Part shown: piece by piece, positions 1,578 to 30,648 of the stretch
How the letters are laid out: every line of letters starts with the position of its first letter
How positions within the stretch are numbered: the first letter of the stretch is position 1
Virus record (IMG/VR): IMGVR_UViG_3300041431_000154
Location: 1-38,972 of that record
From: a virus
Strand: one strand, 5' to 3'
Length of the DNA stretch: 38,972 nt
Notes under the pieces: model-generated
Seen by the model: only the letters and a program-made list of their open reading frames with translations
Database searches by the model: none
Told to the model about the DNA's origin: nothing
Made by a program: the position numbers and the translations under genes

Positions 1578-2390
1578 ATGCCTGAACCTATTTTCATGCG
1601 GATAGGGGAAACGAAGACAGTGGAGTTGGCGGACCTCTCCGCCGCAATCGTGAATTTCCTCGGCTTGTTGCGGGATGTTGATTCCACGATTTCTGACAAA
1701 CGAATGGGAAATCTGCGGTGGAAAGTCACCGTGCTCCGAGATGACCCATTTCCTCTAATTGGCGTTACGCCAGTTCCCTTCAAACCCACCCTGAGGGATA
1801 CCAGTATTGAAGTTCAAAGAGAGGTCATCGGCAACGTCATATCCCTGACTGAGAAAGGCGAGCGGAGCAGGCTTTTTTCTGATGCCGCACTCGATAAAGT
1901 TGAGCGCATTGCCAAGACTGCACCCAAGATTGGCGGGACGACGATTTATACCGCTCAAACTGGAGAATTCAATCTACAGACCAAGGTCACTGCAAGAACG
2001 CTCACGCAGATTAGAGAATTGACGCAGGTTACGTCTCGCGCTTTTGGAAATATTATCGGAGATCTAGGTTCAATTTCCGTTCACAAGGGCTTGGAGATCC
2101 GAGTATGGGACGCGTCATTAAAGAGGCCGATTCGTTGCAATTTTAAGCACGAGGGCAGAGGGGCTGAGGCCAAGGAAATAGAAGCTCAAGCCAAGGACTT
2201 ACTTGGGAAACGTGTCCTGGCGACCGGAACGATCAATTTTGACCGAAATGGTATGCCGCTCAAAATGCTGGTCCATTCCCTAAAGGATGCCCCAATGCCG
2301 ACCCTCCCTCCTATCGAAGAACTGATGGGCTCAATCCAGCATTTTACCGGGGGGCTTTCCGTGAGCGAATTTTTGGAGGACTCGGACTGA
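1578..2390 (+). CDS. Hypothetical protein paired with a PIN nuclease (possible antitoxin or partner)
   Basis: A 270-residue soluble protein with no signal peptide or membrane segment and no motif I can assign. The start is supported by AGGAGAG just upstream of the ATG. The middle (about 75-165) is rich in alternating Lys/Thr/Ile, and the end is acidic (EDSD). Its stop overlaps the start of the PIN-domain gene by one base (TGATG), so the two are translationally coupled. By position it would be the antitoxin or regulator of that nuclease, but 270 residues is far larger than a normal VapB-type antitoxin (usually under 100). The gene is visibly more AT-rich than the virion genes, suggesting separately acquired cargo. 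The role is inferred from context only. Confidence 0.8.
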   Translation: MPEPIFMRIGETKTVELADLSAAIVNFLGLLRDVDSTISDKRMGNLRWKVTVLRDDPFPLIGVTPVPFKPTLRDTSIEVQREVIGNVISLTEKGERSRLFSDAALDKVERIAKTAPKIGGTTIYTAQTGEFNLQTKVTARTLTQIRELTQVTSRAFGNIIGDLGSISVHKGLEIRVWDASLKRPIRCNFKHEGRGAEAKEIEAQAKDLLGKRVLATGTINFDRNGMPLKMLVHSLKDAPMPTLPPIEELMGSIQHFTGGLSVSEFLEDSD

Positions 2391-3034
2391 TGGCGATTCA
2401 GAAACTTTACTGGGATACGAGCTGCTTCATTGCTTATCTCAGCATTAAGCATCCCGAAGAACAACTCCGTGCCTTTATTTGCCGCGACATTCTTTATCAT
2501 GCCCAAAATGACAAAATAGAACTTTGCACTTCTTCCTGGACTATGGTCGAAACGGTTCGCCCCCGATTGGAACACGTACCGTCGCCAATTCCCGTATGGG
2601 CGGAAGCGTTAGAGCAAAAAGATAAGGACGGAAAATTCATTTACCCGGACGCCACGAGTAAATTCAAAGACATCTGGGAATATTATGACAAGAAACACAA
2701 TACGCCGAGTCGTAAGCTCACGGAGCAGGAAAGCGCCGCCATGGAGGCCATTTTCGAATATCCATTCATCACTAAAATCACCGTCGATCCTGTGATTGCT
2801 GGGAAGGCGAGGGACATTGCACGTAACACTAAACTCAGGCCGGGGGATTCCCTTCACGTAGCCTCGGCACTCGCTGCTCAATGTACGTGTCTTCAATCGT
2901 GGGATGGAGACTACAGCGAAACTGCTGATTTAATCCCTTGGGAAAGACCGCAGAGGCTATCTGACCAATCTCACCTCGCCGAAATTTCACCCCCCAAGCT
3001 TACCGGAGAAGGCTTTCTTTTTCCTCCGCCCTAA
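2390..3034 (+). CDS. PIN-domain nuclease (VapC-like)
   Basis: A 214-residue protein with the acidic quartet of PIN-domain ribonucleases in order: D9 (YWDTS), E54 (MVET), D153 (PGDSLH) and D172 (SWDGDY). The N-terminal LYWDTSCFIAYL strand-helix is typical of VapC-like proteins. PIN nucleases cut RNA, often tRNA or rRNA, using Mg2+ bound by these acids. It is longer than a classical VapC (about 130-150 aa) because of an insertion at roughly 60-125. A GGAGG site lies inside the end of the upstream gene, which it overlaps by one base. As integrase-proximal cargo it could act in toxin-antitoxin maintenance or abortive infection. Domain call firm; system identity inferred. Confidence 0.85.
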   Translation: MAIQKLYWDTSCFIAYLSIKHPEEQLRAFICRDILYHAQNDKIELCTSSWTMVETVRPRLEHVPSPIPVWAEALEQKDKDGKFIYPDATSKFKDIWEYYDKKHNTPSRKLTEQESAAMEAIFEYPFITKITVDPVIAGKARDIARNTKLRPGDSLHVASALAAQCTCLQSWDGDYSETADLIPWERPQRLSDQSHLAEISPPKLTGEGFLFPPP

Positions 3035-3214: not shown

Positions 3215-4291
3215 ATGATTAAGAAAGTCAGCAATCAAAAGCTGGGCAACGCGCGACATGCCAAGCAGGATGAGTTCTACACGCAGCTTGGCGACATCGA
3301 AAATGAGCTGAGGCACTATAAGGCACAGCTACTTGGAAAGACGATACTCTGCAACTGCGACGACCCTTTTGAAAGCAATTTCTTCCGATACTTCGCGCTC
3401 AACTTCAACACGCTCCGTCTCAAAAAGCTCATCGCGACGAGCTATGTGAAATCGCCCATCGTTGGGGGTCAGTTGCCGCTCCTCGACATGGAGGGGCTGA
3501 AACCCGAAGGCGAAGAACCCTACGCGATAGAAATCAACGAAGTGCCAGATCATAAACGGCGTGGTGCGACTGACCTCGCTGACGTGGAGTACCTACTAAA
3601 GCACGATGCAAATTCGTCACGGGCGCTCAATGCGGACGGCATCTTCGACGCTGGGGACTTCCGAAGCCGCGATTGCGTGGAGTTCCTGAAAGAGGCGGAC
3701 ATTGTTGTCACCAATCCGCCGTTCTCATTGTTCCGTGAGTTTGTGGCGCAGATTGTCGCGCATAACAAAAAATTTTTGATTATCGGCAATAAGAATGCGC
3801 TTCATTATCAGGACATTTTCAAGCTCATCAAAGAAGACAAGCTTTGGGTGGGTGCTCGGGCATTCTCCGGCGGAATGTGGTTTGTCGCAGACTACGTGGG
3901 CAAATACGAAAAGGTCATTGATGGCGTAAAGCTGATAAATGTCCCGGCAATCTGGTTGACGAACATGGACAATCCGAAGCGCCACGAAAAACTGCCACTC
4001 TACAAGCGATACACGCCCGACGGGTACCCAACATACGACAACTACGACGCAATCGAGGTCAGCAAGACTAATGAAATACCTTGCGACTATGACGGCTTGA
4101 TGGGTGTTCCTGATGCGTTCTTGGACAAATACAACCCGGATCAATTTGAACTCATAGGCATACCGTTTGGCGACTTAGGCAAGGCAATCGGGGTAACGAA
4201 GAATTATCGAGGTCGAACGGACATTGCAATAACCAAGGACGGCACATCACGGTGCCCGTATTCAAGGATCATCATCAGAAGGAAATCCTGA
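3215..4291 (+). CDS. EcoRI-methylase-family DNA adenine methyltransferase
   Basis: A 358-residue N6-adenine DNA methyltransferase of the EcoRI family. The N-terminus (GNARHAKQDEFYTQ...) and KTILCNCDDPFESNF carry the SAM-binding region that distinguishes this family. The catalytic motif IV is NPPF at residues 167-170 (DIVVTNPPFSLF). Members methylate adenine in a short specific site and protect it from a cognate nuclease. There is no EcoRI-type endonuclease beside it; instead a DUF262-HNH gene starts one base after its stop. GAATTC sites are present in the window (for example at 1965, 32798 and 34545), so self-protection would matter if the specificity were EcoRI-like, which is not established. 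The upstream 3035-3214 holds no gene I can support and probably carries the promoter. Confidence 0.92.
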   Translation: MIKKVSNQKLGNARHAKQDEFYTQLGDIENELRHYKAQLLGKTILCNCDDPFESNFFRYFALNFNTLRLKKLIATSYVKSPIVGGQLPLLDMEGLKPEGEEPYAIEINEVPDHKRRGATDLADVEYLLKHDANSSRALNADGIFDAGDFRSRDCVEFLKEADIVVTNPPFSLFREFVAQIVAHNKKFLIIGNKNALHYQDIFKLIKEDKLWVGARAFSGGMWFVADYVGKYEKVIDGVKLINVPAIWLTNMDNPKRHEKLPLYKRYTPDGYPTYDNYDAIEVSKTNEIPCDYDGLMGVPDAFLDKYNPDQFELIGIPFGDLGKAIGVTKNYRGRTDIAITKDGTSRCPYSRIIIRRKS

Positions 4292-4292
4292 C

Positions 4293-5399
4293 ATGAAAAT
4301 CGTCTTGCACAATATCAAGGTGTCCGAACTGATCGCAGGCTACGAAGACAAAGCCGAAGAAGGAGGTGTGCGCGGCTACGGAGGGCGTTTGAACATTCGT
4401 CCGCCTTACCAACGCGAGTTCATCTACAAGGAAAAACAGCGCAATGAGGTCATCCATACAGTGCGCAAAGGTTTCCCACTTAACACTATGTATTGGGTAG
4501 TGGCCGGTGACGAGTTTGAACTCATGGATGGCCAGCAGCGCACCATCAGCATTTGCCAATACTTTCATAACGACTTCTCAGTGGAGATGGATGGCTCACC
4601 CAAGTCCTTCGACAACCTGACACCTGAGAAGCGGAAGCAGATTCTAGACTACGAGCTTTCAGTCTATGTGTGCGAAGGAACCGAAGACGAAAAACTCGAC
4701 TGGTTCAAGATCATCAACATCGCGGGAGTGGAACTGAGCGCCCAGGAACTGCGCAATGCGATCTACACGGGTCCGTGGCTCACGGAAGCCAAGCGGTGGT
4801 TCAGCAAGCGCGGTGGGCCGGCAGTTGCGATAGGCGAGAAATACGTGAACGCTAGAGTGGACCGTCAGGAACTGCTAGAAAGGGCGCTGGAGTGGATCTC
4901 GGGTGGTACAGGTGACAAAGCTGTTAAAGAGTATATGAGCACCCACCAGCGCGACACGGATGCGCAGGAACTCTGGCAGTATTTTCAGGAGGTTATTGCG
5001 TGGATTCAGCGAGTATTCCCCACGTACCGCCACATCATGAAGGGGCTTGACTGGGGCGGATTCTACAACAAACACAAGGACAAAAAGTTCAATGCAGCGA
5101 AGTTGGAGCAGCGCATCGCGGAGCTTATTGACGATGACGAGGTCAACAGCAAGAAGGGCATTTACGAATTCCTTCTGACCAACGACGAAAGAACCTTGAG
5201 CTTGCGGGCGTTCGACCAAAAGACGCAGGTAACAGTCTACGAGAAGCAGAAAGGCATTTGTCCTGTTTGCAAAAAGAAGTATGACATTGGCGCAATGGAA
5301 GCTGACCATATCGTCCCGTGGAGCAACGGAGGAAAGACAGTGCCTTCCAACTGCCAGATGCTCTGCAAATTGGATAACAGAACAAAGAGCGGGAAGTAG
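4293..5399 (+). CDS. DUF262-HNH nuclease (GmrSD-like, restriction partner)
   Basis: A 368-residue two-domain protein. The N-terminal DUF262 (GmrSD N-terminal, ParB-like fold) domain carries RPPYQREF near residue 35 and the diagnostic DGQQR at 79-83. The C-terminus is a compact HNH nuclease: C323 and C326 (CPVC), the DH pair D338-H339 (EADHIVPW), and a later PSNCQMLC...N segment that completes the zinc/metal site. DUF262 proteins use NTP hydrolysis to control DNA cleavage, as in the GmrSD type IV enzymes and in BrxU. The gene begins one base after the methyltransferase stop with AAGGA upstream, so both belong to one operon. This suggests the methylase marks self DNA and this protein cuts unmarked (or differently modified) DNA. 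Cleavage target unknown. Confidence 0.9.
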   Translation: MKIVLHNIKVSELIAGYEDKAEEGGVRGYGGRLNIRPPYQREFIYKEKQRNEVIHTVRKGFPLNTMYWVVAGDEFELMDGQQRTISICQYFHNDFSVEMDGSPKSFDNLTPEKRKQILDYELSVYVCEGTEDEKLDWFKIINIAGVELSAQELRNAIYTGPWLTEAKRWFSKRGGPAVAIGEKYVNARVDRQELLERALEWISGGTGDKAVKEYMSTHQRDTDAQELWQYFQEVIAWIQRVFPTYRHIMKGLDWGGFYNKHKDKKFNAAKLEQRIAELIDDDEVNSKKGIYEFLLTNDERTLSLRAFDQKTQVTVYEKQKGICPVCKKKYDIGAMEADHIVPWSNGGKTVPSNCQMLCKLDNRTKSGK

Positions 5400-25985: not shown

Positions 25986-26444
25986 TCACGCTGCGAACTT
26001 TGCGAAGGGTGAAGCCGTTCCGCCCTGCTGCGGGGCGCCCTGCACTCGGGAGCGGCTGCTTGGGGTCAATCCAAACTCAGTCGCGAACTTATGTAATTTA
26101 TCGAGCGCCACGTTGGCGATCCCGACGTAGGGACTAGGAATCGGGTAACCCGATTTGCCCGCCTTGATGACGAGGCCGAACTTCTGAATCTCTAACTCTG
26201 CCGCTACCCACCGCGACCAAGACGCACAATATCCGGCGAGTGCTGCACGATCCACGCTCGTAAGCAATCCGAGGGTGACGAGTTCAGCAGAGATGCGCTT
26301 CCACTCCGTCTTAGCCTCTTTGTCGAGATGACGCGGGCAAGTTGGAATGCCAGTCGGTTTAGGCTCAGAGACGTTGATAGGCCGATGACCTGGATTGCCC
26401 GCTATGAGTTTGAGGTTCGTCGGTTTTGGTCGTCTGCCTGCCAT
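25986..26444 (-). CDS. terS: Terminase small subunit, P27 family
   Basis: 152 residues, starting MAGRRPKPTNLKLIAGNPGHRPIN, the standard N-terminus of P27-type small terminases. Then come P-x-H-L-D-K-E-A-K-T-E-W-K-R and the helix L-L-T-S-V-D-R-A-A-L-A-G-Y-C. It binds the packaging site and loads the large subunit. Its start is fixed by the family N-terminus, so the upstream formyltransferase-like gene really overlaps it by 80 bases in another frame. The predicted RBS is weak (GGGGGT), in line with translational coupling. Confidence 0.93.
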   Translation of the reverse strand: MAGRRPKPTNLKLIAGNPGHRPINVSEPKPTGIPTCPRHLDKEAKTEWKRISAELVTLGLLTSVDRAALAGYCASWSRWVAAELEIQKFGLVIKAGKSGYPIPSPYVGIANVALDKLHKFATEFGLTPSSRSRVQGAPQQGGTASPFAKFAA

Positions 26445-27138
26445 AATCTAAACCCCCGTCGCCGTCGAGCCGCTCCACCTCGAAGCGGAGACCTCCGTCG
26501 CCAAGCTGAGGCAACTCAGGTCGGTACAGGGGCGCAACGTCGAACGACGGCTCCCAGGTAGCACAGCGGTTGTCCTGAGGCACCCTGACCGCGAGGCCGC
26601 TATCTATATCGGCCAGCGCCTTGAGAAGTAGCCGGATGCCAAGCGGAGCAAGCTGCTCCCGCCACAATGTCTCGACGGTTTCGCCCGGTCGAATAAATAC
26701 GTGCTGTTGAGCCGCAATCGCCCCACAGTCGATGCTGTCGGTCAGCCAGTAGACAGAGCCGCCCGTAATCTTGTCGCCGCCGTGGACCGCCCAACGGACG
26801 GCATCACGACCCCTGTGTAGCGGGAGGAGCGACGGGTGGTAGCCGATGGCCCCAAACCGCGCCTTCGCCCGCGTCTTGCGCCCGATGAAATCGTGCGAGT
26901 GGGCCGCGACGATGATGTCCGTCCCGGTCGGCAGTGACTCCGCCCGAACCTGGGGTTGCCACGGGATGCCAAGCCGCTCCGCTGTTGCCCGGAGACGGTC
27001 GAATACTTGAACGCCGTCTGTCGATAAGCGGTCGGAGAACGGCGGGGAAGACACGCCGATGATCCTGTAATTCCCGGCGATGACGGCTTCGAGAGCGCTC
27101 GCGCCGAAATGTTTCTGACCGCATAGAAAGATATTCAT
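26365..27138 (-). CDS. Formyltransferase-like enzyme
   Basis: 257 residues with the formyltransferase N-terminal (Fmt/ArnA/PurN-like) fold. It opens with a short strand, MNIFLCGQ. The active-site loop is GYHPSLLPLHRG (H101), and a downstream S-I-D-C-G-A-I places D137 where the family Asp lies. The Asn normally two residues before the catalytic His (N-x-H) is Gly99 here. Family members move a formyl group from N10-formyl-tetrahydrofolate to an amine. ATWEPS near residue 198 is an additional landmark. The last 26 codons overlap the terminase small subunit gene. It lies in a cassette with ParB-like and ABC/GNAT genes, so a nucleotide, DNA or protein amine is a likelier substrate than Met-tRNA. 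Substrate unknown. Confidence 0.85.
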   Translation of the reverse strand: MNIFLCGQKHFGASALEAVIAGNYRIIGVSSPPFSDRLSTDGVQVFDRLRATAERLGIPWQPQVRAESLPTGTDIIVAAHSHDFIGRKTRAKARFGAIGYHPSLLPLHRGRDAVRWAVHGGDKITGGSVYWLTDSIDCGAIAAQQHVFIRPGETVETLWREQLAPLGIRLLLKALADIDSGLAVRVPQDNRCATWEPSFDVAPLYRPELPQLGDGGLRFEVERLDGDGGLDYGRQTTKTDEPQTHSGQSRSSAYQRL

Positions 27139-27149
27139 TACTTAGCCGT

Positions 27150-28283
27150 CTAGCCGTAATACCGGAATCCTTGAACGGCTCGAAAGTGCCCGCCGTACCC
27201 GGTGCCAGCGCCGACCGCCCCTTTACCTTGGTGACGCGCCGACCCCGCGAGGGATTTCCTGCTGCTGACCTTGTTAGCGCCGTATAGAATCGCCGATAGC
27301 TGGCGCCACTTAGGGTCGCGGCGAAGGCCCGCGCACAGCCCCGGATGAGACGTGTGAAAAACAGTAGTGACGGGCTTACCCCACTTGTTCTCACCGCGTC
27401 GCCACATATCGCAAATGGTATTGAGGAATCGCATCCCCACACCCGCGCCCTGCCATTCAGGCATAACTACCAAGCGTGTGCCGCGTCCCTCGAAGGCATT
27501 TTTGCCTTTGCTCATCGTACACATGGCCATGTGACAGACCGGCTCACCCTCGACCGTTCCAACGAAGTATTGAGCGGCGACGGGGAGGTGAAGGTCTAAA
27601 TAGTAATGAGGCTTAAACAGCGGCCAGTAACTTGCGTCCGTCTGTTGAATCTGGAGGTCAAACTTTGGCCTGCGCCAAAGTGACCCCCTAGCAAAGCTTT
27701 GCTTCGCGGTGTCGTACACCCAGTCCGGCTCCAACCAATCGAGTACATCGTAATGACAAGACAGGAGTACACACCGCCCGCCTGTTCGCTTCCACGCCTT
27801 CTGGAAAGCCAGCGCCCCGAACTTAGCAATCTGCCGGTCAACGACGCTGGAAAACTCGTCTATAACTACCCCTGCCGGGGCTTCGCTGATGACTCGCGCT
27901 AAATCAGCCCGGAACCGCTCACCGTTAGACAGTGCGTAGTAAGGCCGCAGCCAGCATGGAACAGAGCCGAGACCGACCGTAGCAAGCGCGTTCGTAACGG
28001 CATCGAAATCCCCGTCCGGCGCGATGGCATCGACGATTGGTTTATCTGTCGGCCATCCATCCGGTGAGTACACCGCGTCCGGGCCGAGGATCATGCGGCC
28101 AAGCGATGACTTGCCGGAGCCGGAGGGTCCGACGATGACTCCAAGCTTCCAGTCTTTATCGTCAATATCGAGGGCGGCGTCGAGGTTAAACTCCGCACCC
28201 GACTCGGCGTTGAAAAGTGATTTAACGCGGGCCGCTCGGTAGCTGTTGAAATCCTTGCATGAGTTACGCACTTGCAAATCCAT
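27150..28283 (-). CDS. ABC-type ATPase fused to a GNAT acyltransferase
   Basis: 377 residues in two domains. The ATPase half (about 1-200) has Walker A GPSGSGKS (52-59), a signature-like LSNGE (118-122), Walker B VVIDEFSS with D142/E143, and an H-loop His (LLSCH, H177). The GNAT half (about 205-340) has the acetyl-CoA motif A, LVVMPEWQGAGVG (271-283), then TTVFHTSHPGL and DPKWRQL. There are no membrane segments, so it is not a transporter. It overlaps the ParB-like gene by one base and is followed 11 bases later by the formyltransferase-like gene. GNAT folds include phage Mu Mom, which modifies adenine in DNA; a DNA-directed acylation with ATP-driven control is an inference, not shown. Confidence 0.88.
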   Translation of the reverse strand: MDLQVRNSCKDFNSYRAARVKSLFNAESGAEFNLDAALDIDDKDWKLGVIVGPSGSGKSSLGRMILGPDAVYSPDGWPTDKPIVDAIAPDGDFDAVTNALATVGLGSVPCWLRPYYALSNGERFRADLARVISEAPAGVVIDEFSSVVDRQIAKFGALAFQKAWKRTGGRCVLLSCHYDVLDWLEPDWVYDTAKQSFARGSLWRRPKFDLQIQQTDASYWPLFKPHYYLDLHLPVAAQYFVGTVEGEPVCHMAMCTMSKGKNAFEGRGTRLVVMPEWQGAGVGMRFLNTICDMWRRGENKWGKPVTTVFHTSHPGLCAGLRRDPKWRQLSAILYGANKVSSRKSLAGSARHQGKGAVGAGTGYGGHFRAVQGFRYYG

Positions 28284-28855
28284 CAGGTCACCACGACCTT
28301 ACACTCCAGACCCTCGCCGGATAGCCGGTCGTACACGTCCCGCTGCTCGGCTTCGTCCTTGCAAACTACAATCACGCCATACTGAGCCTTGTAGCGGCTG
28401 TCGGGTGGAGCGTCGCCGATGCCGATGTCATTTACATTTATGGCCGTCTCTGTGACACCTAGCTCTTTCAACTCGCTGGTGTCGAAGAATGGTTGTAGGT
28501 CTATCTCGCCCGATAGGTCGCGGAGTACATCCGGGTCCCACTCCAGGCCGAGTTCGCTGGTGCGGTTATCCGCGACGGCCAGGGCCTTTGCCTTGGGTGA
28601 GTTGATGTCCAGGTCCATGCGTCGGACCACAATCAATTTGGTCCCGTCACTCTCGACAACAACTGCATCCTCGTCGATCCCCGCGCCGGTCGCGCTTCTC
28701 ACCGTCGCGTTACCGGCCAGGATGTTGAAGTTCTTGTCCACCAGGACGGAGCGACCCGCGCCGTAGTCTCTGAGGGACCTCTGTACGAGGTCGGAGCCGC
28801 GTTTGGTGCCGCGATTACAGTTGTGTGAGTCGGTGATGAGGTCGGAAATCTTCAT
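28283..28855 (-). CDS. ParB/Srx-fold protein
   Basis: 190 residues. GRSVLVDKNFNILAGNATV is the ParB N-terminal nucleotide-binding core (GRS...D..G...AGN). KALAVADNRTSELGLEWDPD is the second hallmark (ADNRxxE). The N-terminal G-T-x-R-G-x-x-L-V-x-x-S-L-R-D-Y-G-A-G segment is typical of phage versions. There is no helix-turn-helix of chromosomal ParB, so plasmid-type segregation is unlikely. Phage members of this type usually sit by terminase and DNA-modifying enzymes and may act as NTP-dependent DNA clamps, nucleases or modification guides. It is the first gene of a coupled three-gene cassette. Confidence 0.88.
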   Translation of the reverse strand: MKISDLITDSHNCNRGTKRGSDLVQRSLRDYGAGRSVLVDKNFNILAGNATVRSATGAGIDEDAVVVESDGTKLIVVRRMDLDINSPKAKALAVADNRTSELGLEWDPDVLRDLSGEIDLQPFFDTSELKELGVTETAINVNDIGIGDAPPDSRYKAQYGVIVVCKDEAEQRDVYDRLSGEGLECKVVVT

Positions 28856-30138: not shown

Positions 30139-30648
30139 TTATCCACGGCACTTACTAATAATTCTGTAAAATCTTTGTTGAACGACCTTGAGAGTCAGCC
30201 CCATTGAAAGCGCGATGTCCCTCATTTCGAGCCCGTCTCCAAGAGCGCGAACGAGGGCGGTTTGGTCCGCCGTCAGCTTCACTTTCAGTTGTTCTGGCGT
30301 GTGAAACGTCGCATCCGCGAGATCGTCACGAACCAACTCGTGCTGAGGCATCCCGACGATTTCGGCGTTTGCCTCTTTGACTTGGGCGTGCCGGAATTTG
30401 TCGTAGATGACCCCGCGAAGAATCCCGCGAAGCCACGTCGGGTAACTTGCCCGCGCCCCGTCAAACCTATCCACACGTCGCCACACAGCCACGCAAGCCT
30501 GCTGAGCTAAATCTTCCGCGTCGGCGCGGTCGCTGCCTTCCAGACGGGCGATACCTACCACAAACGCCCGCGACGCCAGCAGCAGGGCTTGCAGGGGCAG
30601 CGTGCCCTGTTTGTACGCAAGATAGGATTCTTGAATTGAGTTACTCAT
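30139..30648 (-). CDS. Sigma-70-family (ECF-like) transcription factor
   Basis: 169 residues. Region 2 is visible at about 43-85: DAEDLAQQACVAVWRRVDRFDG then PTWLRGILRGVIYDKFRH, with the D-x-x-Q-x-x-x-x-x-x-W pattern for core polymerase binding and -10 recognition. Region 4 at about 125-167 (LTADQTALVRALGDGLEMRDIALSMGLTLKVVQQRFYRI) is a helix-turn-helix for -35 recognition. ECF-type size. It lies near the start of the 26-kb leftward operon, so it may switch host polymerase to phage late promoters. It could instead be a host-response regulator. It overlaps the upstream small gene by 8 bases. Confidence 0.85.
   Translation of the reverse strand: MSNSIQESYLAYKQGTLPLQALLLASRAFVVGIARLEGSDRADAEDLAQQACVAVWRRVDRFDGARASYPTWLRGILRGVIYDKFRHAQVKEANAEIVGMPQHELVRDDLADATFHTPEQLKVKLTADQTALVRALGDGLEMRDIALSMGLTLKVVQQRFYRIISKCRG

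Follow-up and report, generated by a model that had tools for sequence, protein, structure and literature searches.

Proteins that combine an ATPase with a GNAT acyltransferase are known from RNA modification, where TmcA and NAT10 make N4-acetylcytidine, TmcA with a helicase-type ATPase. The prediction that ABC ATPase–GNAT proteins acylate nucleobases is reportedly to be credited to Iyer et al. 2013. According to a later account (PMC7824862), an ABC ATPase-coupled GNAT of phages such as pT24 was predicted to make an uncharacterized acyl modification of a nucleobase. In phage Mu, the tail-fiber genes are followed by com and mom at the end of the genome, and Com activates translation of mom (PMC6483171). 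Here, we analyze a cassette of three genes, encoding a ParB-like protein, an ABC ATPase fused to a GNAT domain (ABC-GNAT) and a formyltransferase, in the IMG/VR virus record IMGVR_UViG_3300041431_000154, the whole 38,972-base stretch of which we refer to as the window. Judged from sequence comparisons, a role of the cassette in DNA modification is likely, because its enzyme is exchanged with Mom, it shares an operon with Mom in some loci, and the ABC-GNAT has a published prediction. We give about an even chance to the view that the cassette does the job of mom as a self-contained module for acyl-CoA-dependent modification of DNA bases, with the full formyl-coenzyme A (CoA) mechanism proposed below. 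Nucleobase acylation by analogy with Mom had been put forward in an initial annotation of this DNA, and the replacement of Mom, the operon with Mom and the prediction in PMC7824862 all lend it support.

The three open reading frames (ORFs) are on the minus strand, where the initial annotation had placed them: the ParB-like protein at 28283-28855 (190 residues), the ABC-GNAT at 27150-28283 (377 residues) and the formyltransferase at 26365-27138 (257 residues). The one-base overlap of the first two (TGATG) and the 11-base gap before the third are likewise as described, and Pfam and PHROGs uphold the domain calls (ParB-like, ABC, GNAT and formyltransferase). Scans that started from the ABC-GNAT covered 80 loci on viral contigs and 80 in bacterial and archaeal genomes of many phyla, and a separate scan of viral contigs started from the formyltransferase; the scans share some contigs, and their loci are ranked best hits rather than random samples. 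The ABC-GNAT is directly preceded by the tail of the upstream protein in 76 of 77 viral and 78 of 80 bacterial-genome loci (154/157 together) and directly followed by a formyltransferase in 58/67 and 64/77, respectively (122/144 together). From the formyltransferase scan, the ABC-GNAT was immediately upstream in 68 of the 68 testable loci, and both partners were present in 56/58. Overlaps of 4 to 10 bases between neighboring cassette genes are the rule. Linkage of the trio across phages, for which a gene-neighborhood search had been suggested as a check, is therefore conserved far above chance, and both sets of scans rule out chance adjacency. The same order as in the window, ParB, ABC-GNAT, formyltransferase and terminase, is present in cultured Gordonia phages, and hundreds of relatives occur in phages and bacterial genomes across many bacterial phyla. 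These genes are variously annotated as transporter, tRNA methyltransferase, purine enzyme or anti-CRISPR candidate. Separately, misleading public labels for cassette genes were noted in L084 (1805-2452), L083 (5876-6004) and L082 (7113-7730), namely tRNA-methyltransferase, acr candidate and phosphoribosylglycinamide formyltransferase. In two loci with a displaced formyltransferase (L015 and L022), the genes between it and the ABC-GNAT gave no lead.

The ABC ATPase domain of the fusion protein (27684..28283, minus strand) contains the Walker A motif GPSGSGKS, the signature LSNGE, the Walker B motif VVIDE and the H-loop residue H177. The motif residues are invariant across 29-37 homologs, and ABC_tran was matched in 37/37 members (E 2e-6 for the window protein), which identifies the domain as an ABC ATPase; its AlphaFold model has a predicted local distance difference test (pLDDT) score of 83.8. 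The GNAT domain (27150..27665, minus strand), which matches Acetyltransf_7 in 37/37 members (E 3e-4 for the window protein), has an intact acyl-CoA loop, QGAGVG (Q278-G283), in which Q278, G279 and G281 are invariant in the alignments, as well as an invariant HP (313-314) and the C-terminal motif GGHxRAxQGF. The model of this domain has a pLDDT of 86.3, and its PDB matches are canonical acyl-CoA GNATs; the acyl-CoA loop and these fold matches place it in the GNAT superfamily. A tblastn match to Tenacibaculum phage pT24 (35% identity, E 3e-41), together with the ABC and GNAT domains, assigns the protein to the family of predicted DNA-acylating ABC-GNATs.

A link to DNA modification is provided by the relation of the cassette to Mom. 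In Arthrobacter phages LeeroyJ, which encodes Mom, and EastWest, which encodes an ABC-GNAT, the two enzymes are exchanged between homologous flanks, with identities of 62% for the upstream gene, 52% for the ParB domain, 83% for the downstream AlpA-like gene and 46% for the clamp gene. The C-terminal tails of the ParB proteins switch with the enzyme, such that a CPxC knuckle accompanies Mom and the cassette tail accompanies the ABC-GNAT. In three further loci (L058, L061 and L065), a Mom gene (PF25680, E about 1e-53) heads the series tail–ABC-GNAT–formyltransferase and shares 8 base pairs with the tail gene. A ParB-like gene followed by Mom is also found in Microbacterium phage Appa. In Pseudomonas phage Komp_PAO1_1 and a Porphyromonas transposable phage, tail, ABC-GNAT and formyltransferase follow the tail-fiber genes at the right end, as com-mom does in Mu; this Mu-like placement applies to those records with Mu transposase or Gam markers, which are only some, and to annotated phages. 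Two ParB-like proteins beside Mom (L203, 3178-3708; L201, 2469-3002) were observed to end in a CPxC zinc-knuckle-like tail that recalls the zinc ribbon of Com. Enterococcus phages 159 (Mom) and 9184 (ABC-GNAT), with the same polymerase gene alongside, were considered as a further exchange and set aside, as this is not a clean replacement and the insertion in 9184 splits the polymerase. Specifically, in 9184 (L208, 3034-4475) the ABC and GNAT ORFs are inserted within the gene for the DNA polymerase, and the polymerase C terminus is in one ORF with the GNAT domain.

The protein upstream of the ABC-GNAT in the window consists of a ParB/Srx-like domain (approximately residues 1-145; 28421..28855, minus strand; PHROG 620, E 4e-17) and a C-terminal tail (28283..28420, minus strand; PHROG 28816, E 9e-12), for which the alignment gives the consensus YxxQxGVIVxCxDExxQxxxYxxLxxxGxxCKVVxV. 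In 41 of 78 scored loci the upstream ORF has fewer than 90 residues, mostly 49-69, and corresponds to the final 40 residues of the window protein. The 49-residue ORF of Komp_PAO1_1 belongs to the same family as the window tail (PHROG 28816, E 1e-21). Across the loci scanned, then, the constant partner of the ABC-GNAT is the tail of about 40 residues, not ParB, and the ParB-like domain is optional, because the tail stands alone in about half of the loci. The ParB-fold partner named in the initial annotation is thus present in the window as a domain, but a dispensable one, and ParB as a core component is ruled out, since stand-alone tails take its place. Assignment as a ParB partition protein also failed: the window protein gave no match to Pfam ParB_N, its phosphate motif is degenerate and reads GNAT instead of GxxR, and no ParA was seen among the window neighbors scanned with Pfam and PHROGs. 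A motif survey found GNxT in most fused ParB-like copies where the GxxR nucleotide motif is expected. Given that Com activates mom translation, the stand-alone tail could by analogy be a Com-like regulator, or else an enzyme subunit. In Oenococcus phage Vinitor-27 (L217, 2297-4019), split ABC and GNAT ORFs are preceded by a gene that carries the annotation adenine methyltransferase; we noted that it encodes a ParB-like protein, with a weak match to the tail family.

In Fmt, PurN and ArnA, a catalytic Asn is located two residues before the catalytic His. The formyltransferase of the window (Formyl_trans_N, E 3.5e-18) retains His101, Ser103 and Asp137 and has Gly99 at the Asn position. Among 131 loci the His is invariant, as are the Ser and Asp in the alignment, and the Asn position of the N-H-D triad is occupied by Gly in 115 and by Ser, Ala, Ile and Val in four each, never by Asn. 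Solved-structure searches with a profile and with the single sequence both returned the hydrolase domain of 10-formyl-tetrahydrofolate dehydrogenase (FDH) first (151 bits with the profile, compared to 101 for the best Fmt); Fmt, ArnA and PurN were also among the matches. In FDH, the Asn position is taken by Ile104 (PMC4388273), and its N-terminal domain hands the formyl group to the 4′-phosphopantetheine arm of a carrier domain (PMC8748788). For HypX, another relative, formyl transfer to CoA has been proposed (PMC6802093). The retained His, Ser and Asp, the missing Asn and the best similarity all assign the phage enzyme to the FDH type. It fell far below the cut-offs for methionyl-tRNA formyltransferase (TIGR00460, 69 bits against 201.5) and, despite its PHROG name, for PurN (TIGR00639, 44 bits against 150.1), both also disfavored by the absent Asn. 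Because Asn is absent as in FDH, FDH is the best match, and formyl goes to phosphopantetheine in FDH and, as proposed, to CoA in HypX, the phage enzyme probably makes formyl-CoA for the GNAT. The initial annotation had counted two possible acyl-transfer enzymes in the cassette; more likely, the GNAT is an acyl-CoA-using transferase and the formyltransferase the donor maker, placing formyl onto the CoA thiol.

A second donor pathway appears in a variant of the cassette. In phage Jace, ParB and the ABC-GNAT are followed by an aspartate decarboxylase (PanD; PF02261, E 2e-33) and a class III CoA-transferase (PF02515, E 2e-8), which occupy the place of the formyltransferase in phages of this type, and the order ParB–ABC-GNAT–PanD–CoA-transferase recurs in L079, L080, L210 and L211. 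Aspartate decarboxylase yields beta-alanine, and class III CoA-transferases yield CoA thioesters. The predicted donor in Jace-type cassettes is therefore beta-alanyl-CoA, and this pathway supports the donor-supply logic of the formyltransferase. We tentatively consider, as a possibility with less than an even chance, that these cassettes form a modular family in which one ABC-GNAT writer is combined with interchangeable acyl-CoA makers (an FDH-type enzyme for N-formyl bases, PanD and CoA-transferase for beta-alanyl bases), and in which a swappable tail matches each writer, Mom or ABC-GNAT, to a ParB or stand-alone partner.

In the proposed mechanism, the formyltransferase would move formyl from 10-formyl-tetrahydrofolate (10-formyl-THF) to the CoA thiol, as in FDH with phosphopantetheine and, by proposal, in HypX with CoA. 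The GNAT would then bind formyl-CoA and formylate an exocyclic amine of a phage DNA base, while the fused ABC ATPase would use ATP to engage or distort the DNA (compare TmcA). The tail, alone or fused to ParB, would act as a dedicated partner of the enzyme, either as a guiding subunit or as a Com-like translation regulator. The resulting base modification would shield the DNA from restriction.

Several findings weigh against this mechanism and its likeness to Mom. In sequence, the GNAT domain is not significantly related to Mom (hhalign probability 2%); the Mom profile (PF25680) gave no match for the window protein and is not listed for its 37 relatives. The distant relative LE4 reached E 0.06, below the cut-off. 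The comparisons thus did not establish that the GNAT domain is directly linked to Mom by sequence or fold, and by none of the tests made does the protein belong to the Mom family. The nearest GNAT folds include the protein N-terminal acetyltransferases RimI and Naa50/60, which leaves room for a protein substrate. To our knowledge, formyl-CoA has no precedent as a GNAT donor. About 15% of close cassettes are without an adjacent formyltransferase, including some at prophage ends that seem complete; thus, either the formyltransferase is not strictly required or the donor comes from the host. The three loci with Mom in the operon are mutually related and not fully independent, and the beta-alanyl-type cassettes, which share ancestry, are not fully independent events either. 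The parallel with the location of Mom in Mu-like phages is one of position, and in several Mu-like members the cassette is found in mid-genome.

The fold of the GNAT domain bears on whether the cassette is instead a host-takeover or translation-modifying module that acts on tRNA or on a protein of the ribosome, the RNA polymerase or the virion. Other phage GNATs do modify RNA polymerase (Rac, PMC7824862), but the exchange with Mom between homologous flanks, the common operon and the ParB-like partners shared with Mom all speak for DNA, and PADLOC matches were only weak and partial, so that we regard a tRNA or protein target as rather improbable. The cassettes without a formyltransferase, along with the distant ABC-GNATs of EastWest, LE4 and PX29 that also are without one, would be accommodated by plain acetylation from host acetyl-CoA, with the formyltransferase in an accessory, unrelated or regulatory role. 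Its high retention across many bacterial phyla, and the fact that the variant cassettes have a different CoA-ester pathway in its place instead of a gap, make this quite improbable.

The formyltransferase itself admits two further explanations. The same gene set and DNA-modification context would suit a two-step hypermodification, in which the ABC-GNAT adds an amino-acyl or other acyl group from a host acyl-CoA and the formyltransferase formylates the new amine, as Fmt does on Met-tRNA; indeed, the fold relatives Fmt, ArnA and PurN usually formylate amines. We consider this unlikely, as the Asn of the amine-formylating enzymes is absent in 131/131 loci, as in the thiol-transferring FDH, and the alternative pair in Jace makes a CoA thioester and is not an amine formylator. 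The closest relative, the FDH hydrolase domain, hydrolyzes 10-formyl-THF in vitro with added thiols (PMC4388273), from which one could envision an enzyme that drains the one-carbon pool during infection and is tied to the ABC-GNAT by co-expression only. Yet FDH hydrolase alone needs non-physiological thiol levels for this activity (PMC8748788), and the adjoining ABC-GNAT in 68/68 loci, with short overlaps, argues for a shared pathway, leaving such a drain very improbable. Formyl-CoA-dependent DNA-base modification is the explanation that we prefer to these four.

The final 80 bases of the formyltransferase gene coincide with the beginning of the gene for the small terminase (25986-26444, minus strand; Terminase_4, E 8.5e-28), a neighbor outside the system. 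The position of the cassette in phage genomes varies and the terminase neighborhood is one of several; the modification of a packaging protein, also raised in the initial annotation, found no support. The integrase gene at 1-1221 makes a temperate phage probable; the 38,972-base window showed no terminal repeat. At 3215-5399 on the plus strand, the gene for an EcoRI-type adenine methylase (PF13651, E 6e-123) is separated by one base from that for a GmrSD_N and HNH endonuclease-like protein (PF03235, PF01844) behind it; the two adjoin a PIN-domain gene (2390-3034) and the integrase. This pair looks like a prophage-borne restriction or defense pair of unusual composition. At 30139-30648 (minus strand), upstream of the structural gene block, is a sigma-70 region 2 protein (E 2e-14), possibly a phage-encoded late-gene sigma factor.

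If the proposed mechanism is correct, phages make at least two undescribed DNA base modifications, with the tag set by the donor enzyme in the cassette. Formyl-CoA would acquire a further role in biosynthesis, in addition to oxalate metabolism and hydrogenase CO, and a phage could disguise its DNA from host defenses by a route absent from the literature searched. The prediction is directly testable, as cultured phages in collections carry cassettes (Gordonia Axumite and relatives, Pseudomonas Komp_PAO1_1, Jace and EastWest). The initial annotation knew of no described system of this composition; this holds for the trio in the literature searched, but the ABC-GNAT part had already been predicted. 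For the formyltransferase, the beta-alanyl variant, the tail exchange and the Mom exchange, no account was found in that literature, to which Iyer et al. 2013 did not belong.

Compared with known systems, the cassette resembles com-mom of Mu (Mom PF25680; Com PF10122) in having a small gene directly upstream of, and overlapping, the modifying enzyme, in the GNAT fold of that enzyme, in its right-end position in some Mu-like phages and in its interchangeable place in Arthrobacter phages. It differs from com-mom in that its enzyme joins a canonical acyl-CoA GNAT with an ABC ATPase and lies outside PF25680, its small protein is not a Com zinc ribbon, and it encodes a donor-making enzyme. The predicted DNA-acylating ABC-GNATs (pT24; PMC7824862) belong to the same enzyme family, but the accounts of them in the literature searched make no mention of the formyltransferase, the PanD/CoA-transferase variant, the tail domain and the Mom exchange. 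Phage ParB-CTPase-fold proteins (PMC12704722) also place a ParB-like domain in cassettes with modification enzymes, whereas the copies described here mostly have GNxT rather than GxxR, are without ParA among the scanned neighbors and are optional. The hydrolase domain of FDH (ALDH1L1) and the N-terminal domain of HypX have a fold in common with the phage formyltransferase, and FDH in addition has the His-Ser-Asp set, no Asn at the position of its Ile104, and the top solved-structure score; in contrast, the phage enzyme stands alone, without an ACP-like or aldehyde dehydrogenase domain, and its proposed acceptor is CoA used by a separate GNAT. Finally, as in TmcA and NAT10, an ATPase and an acyl-CoA GNAT are present in one polypeptide that, as proposed for the cassette, acts on a base amine, but TmcA uses a helicase-type ATPase and has an RNA target, whereas the cassette combines an ABC ATPase with a proposed DNA target.

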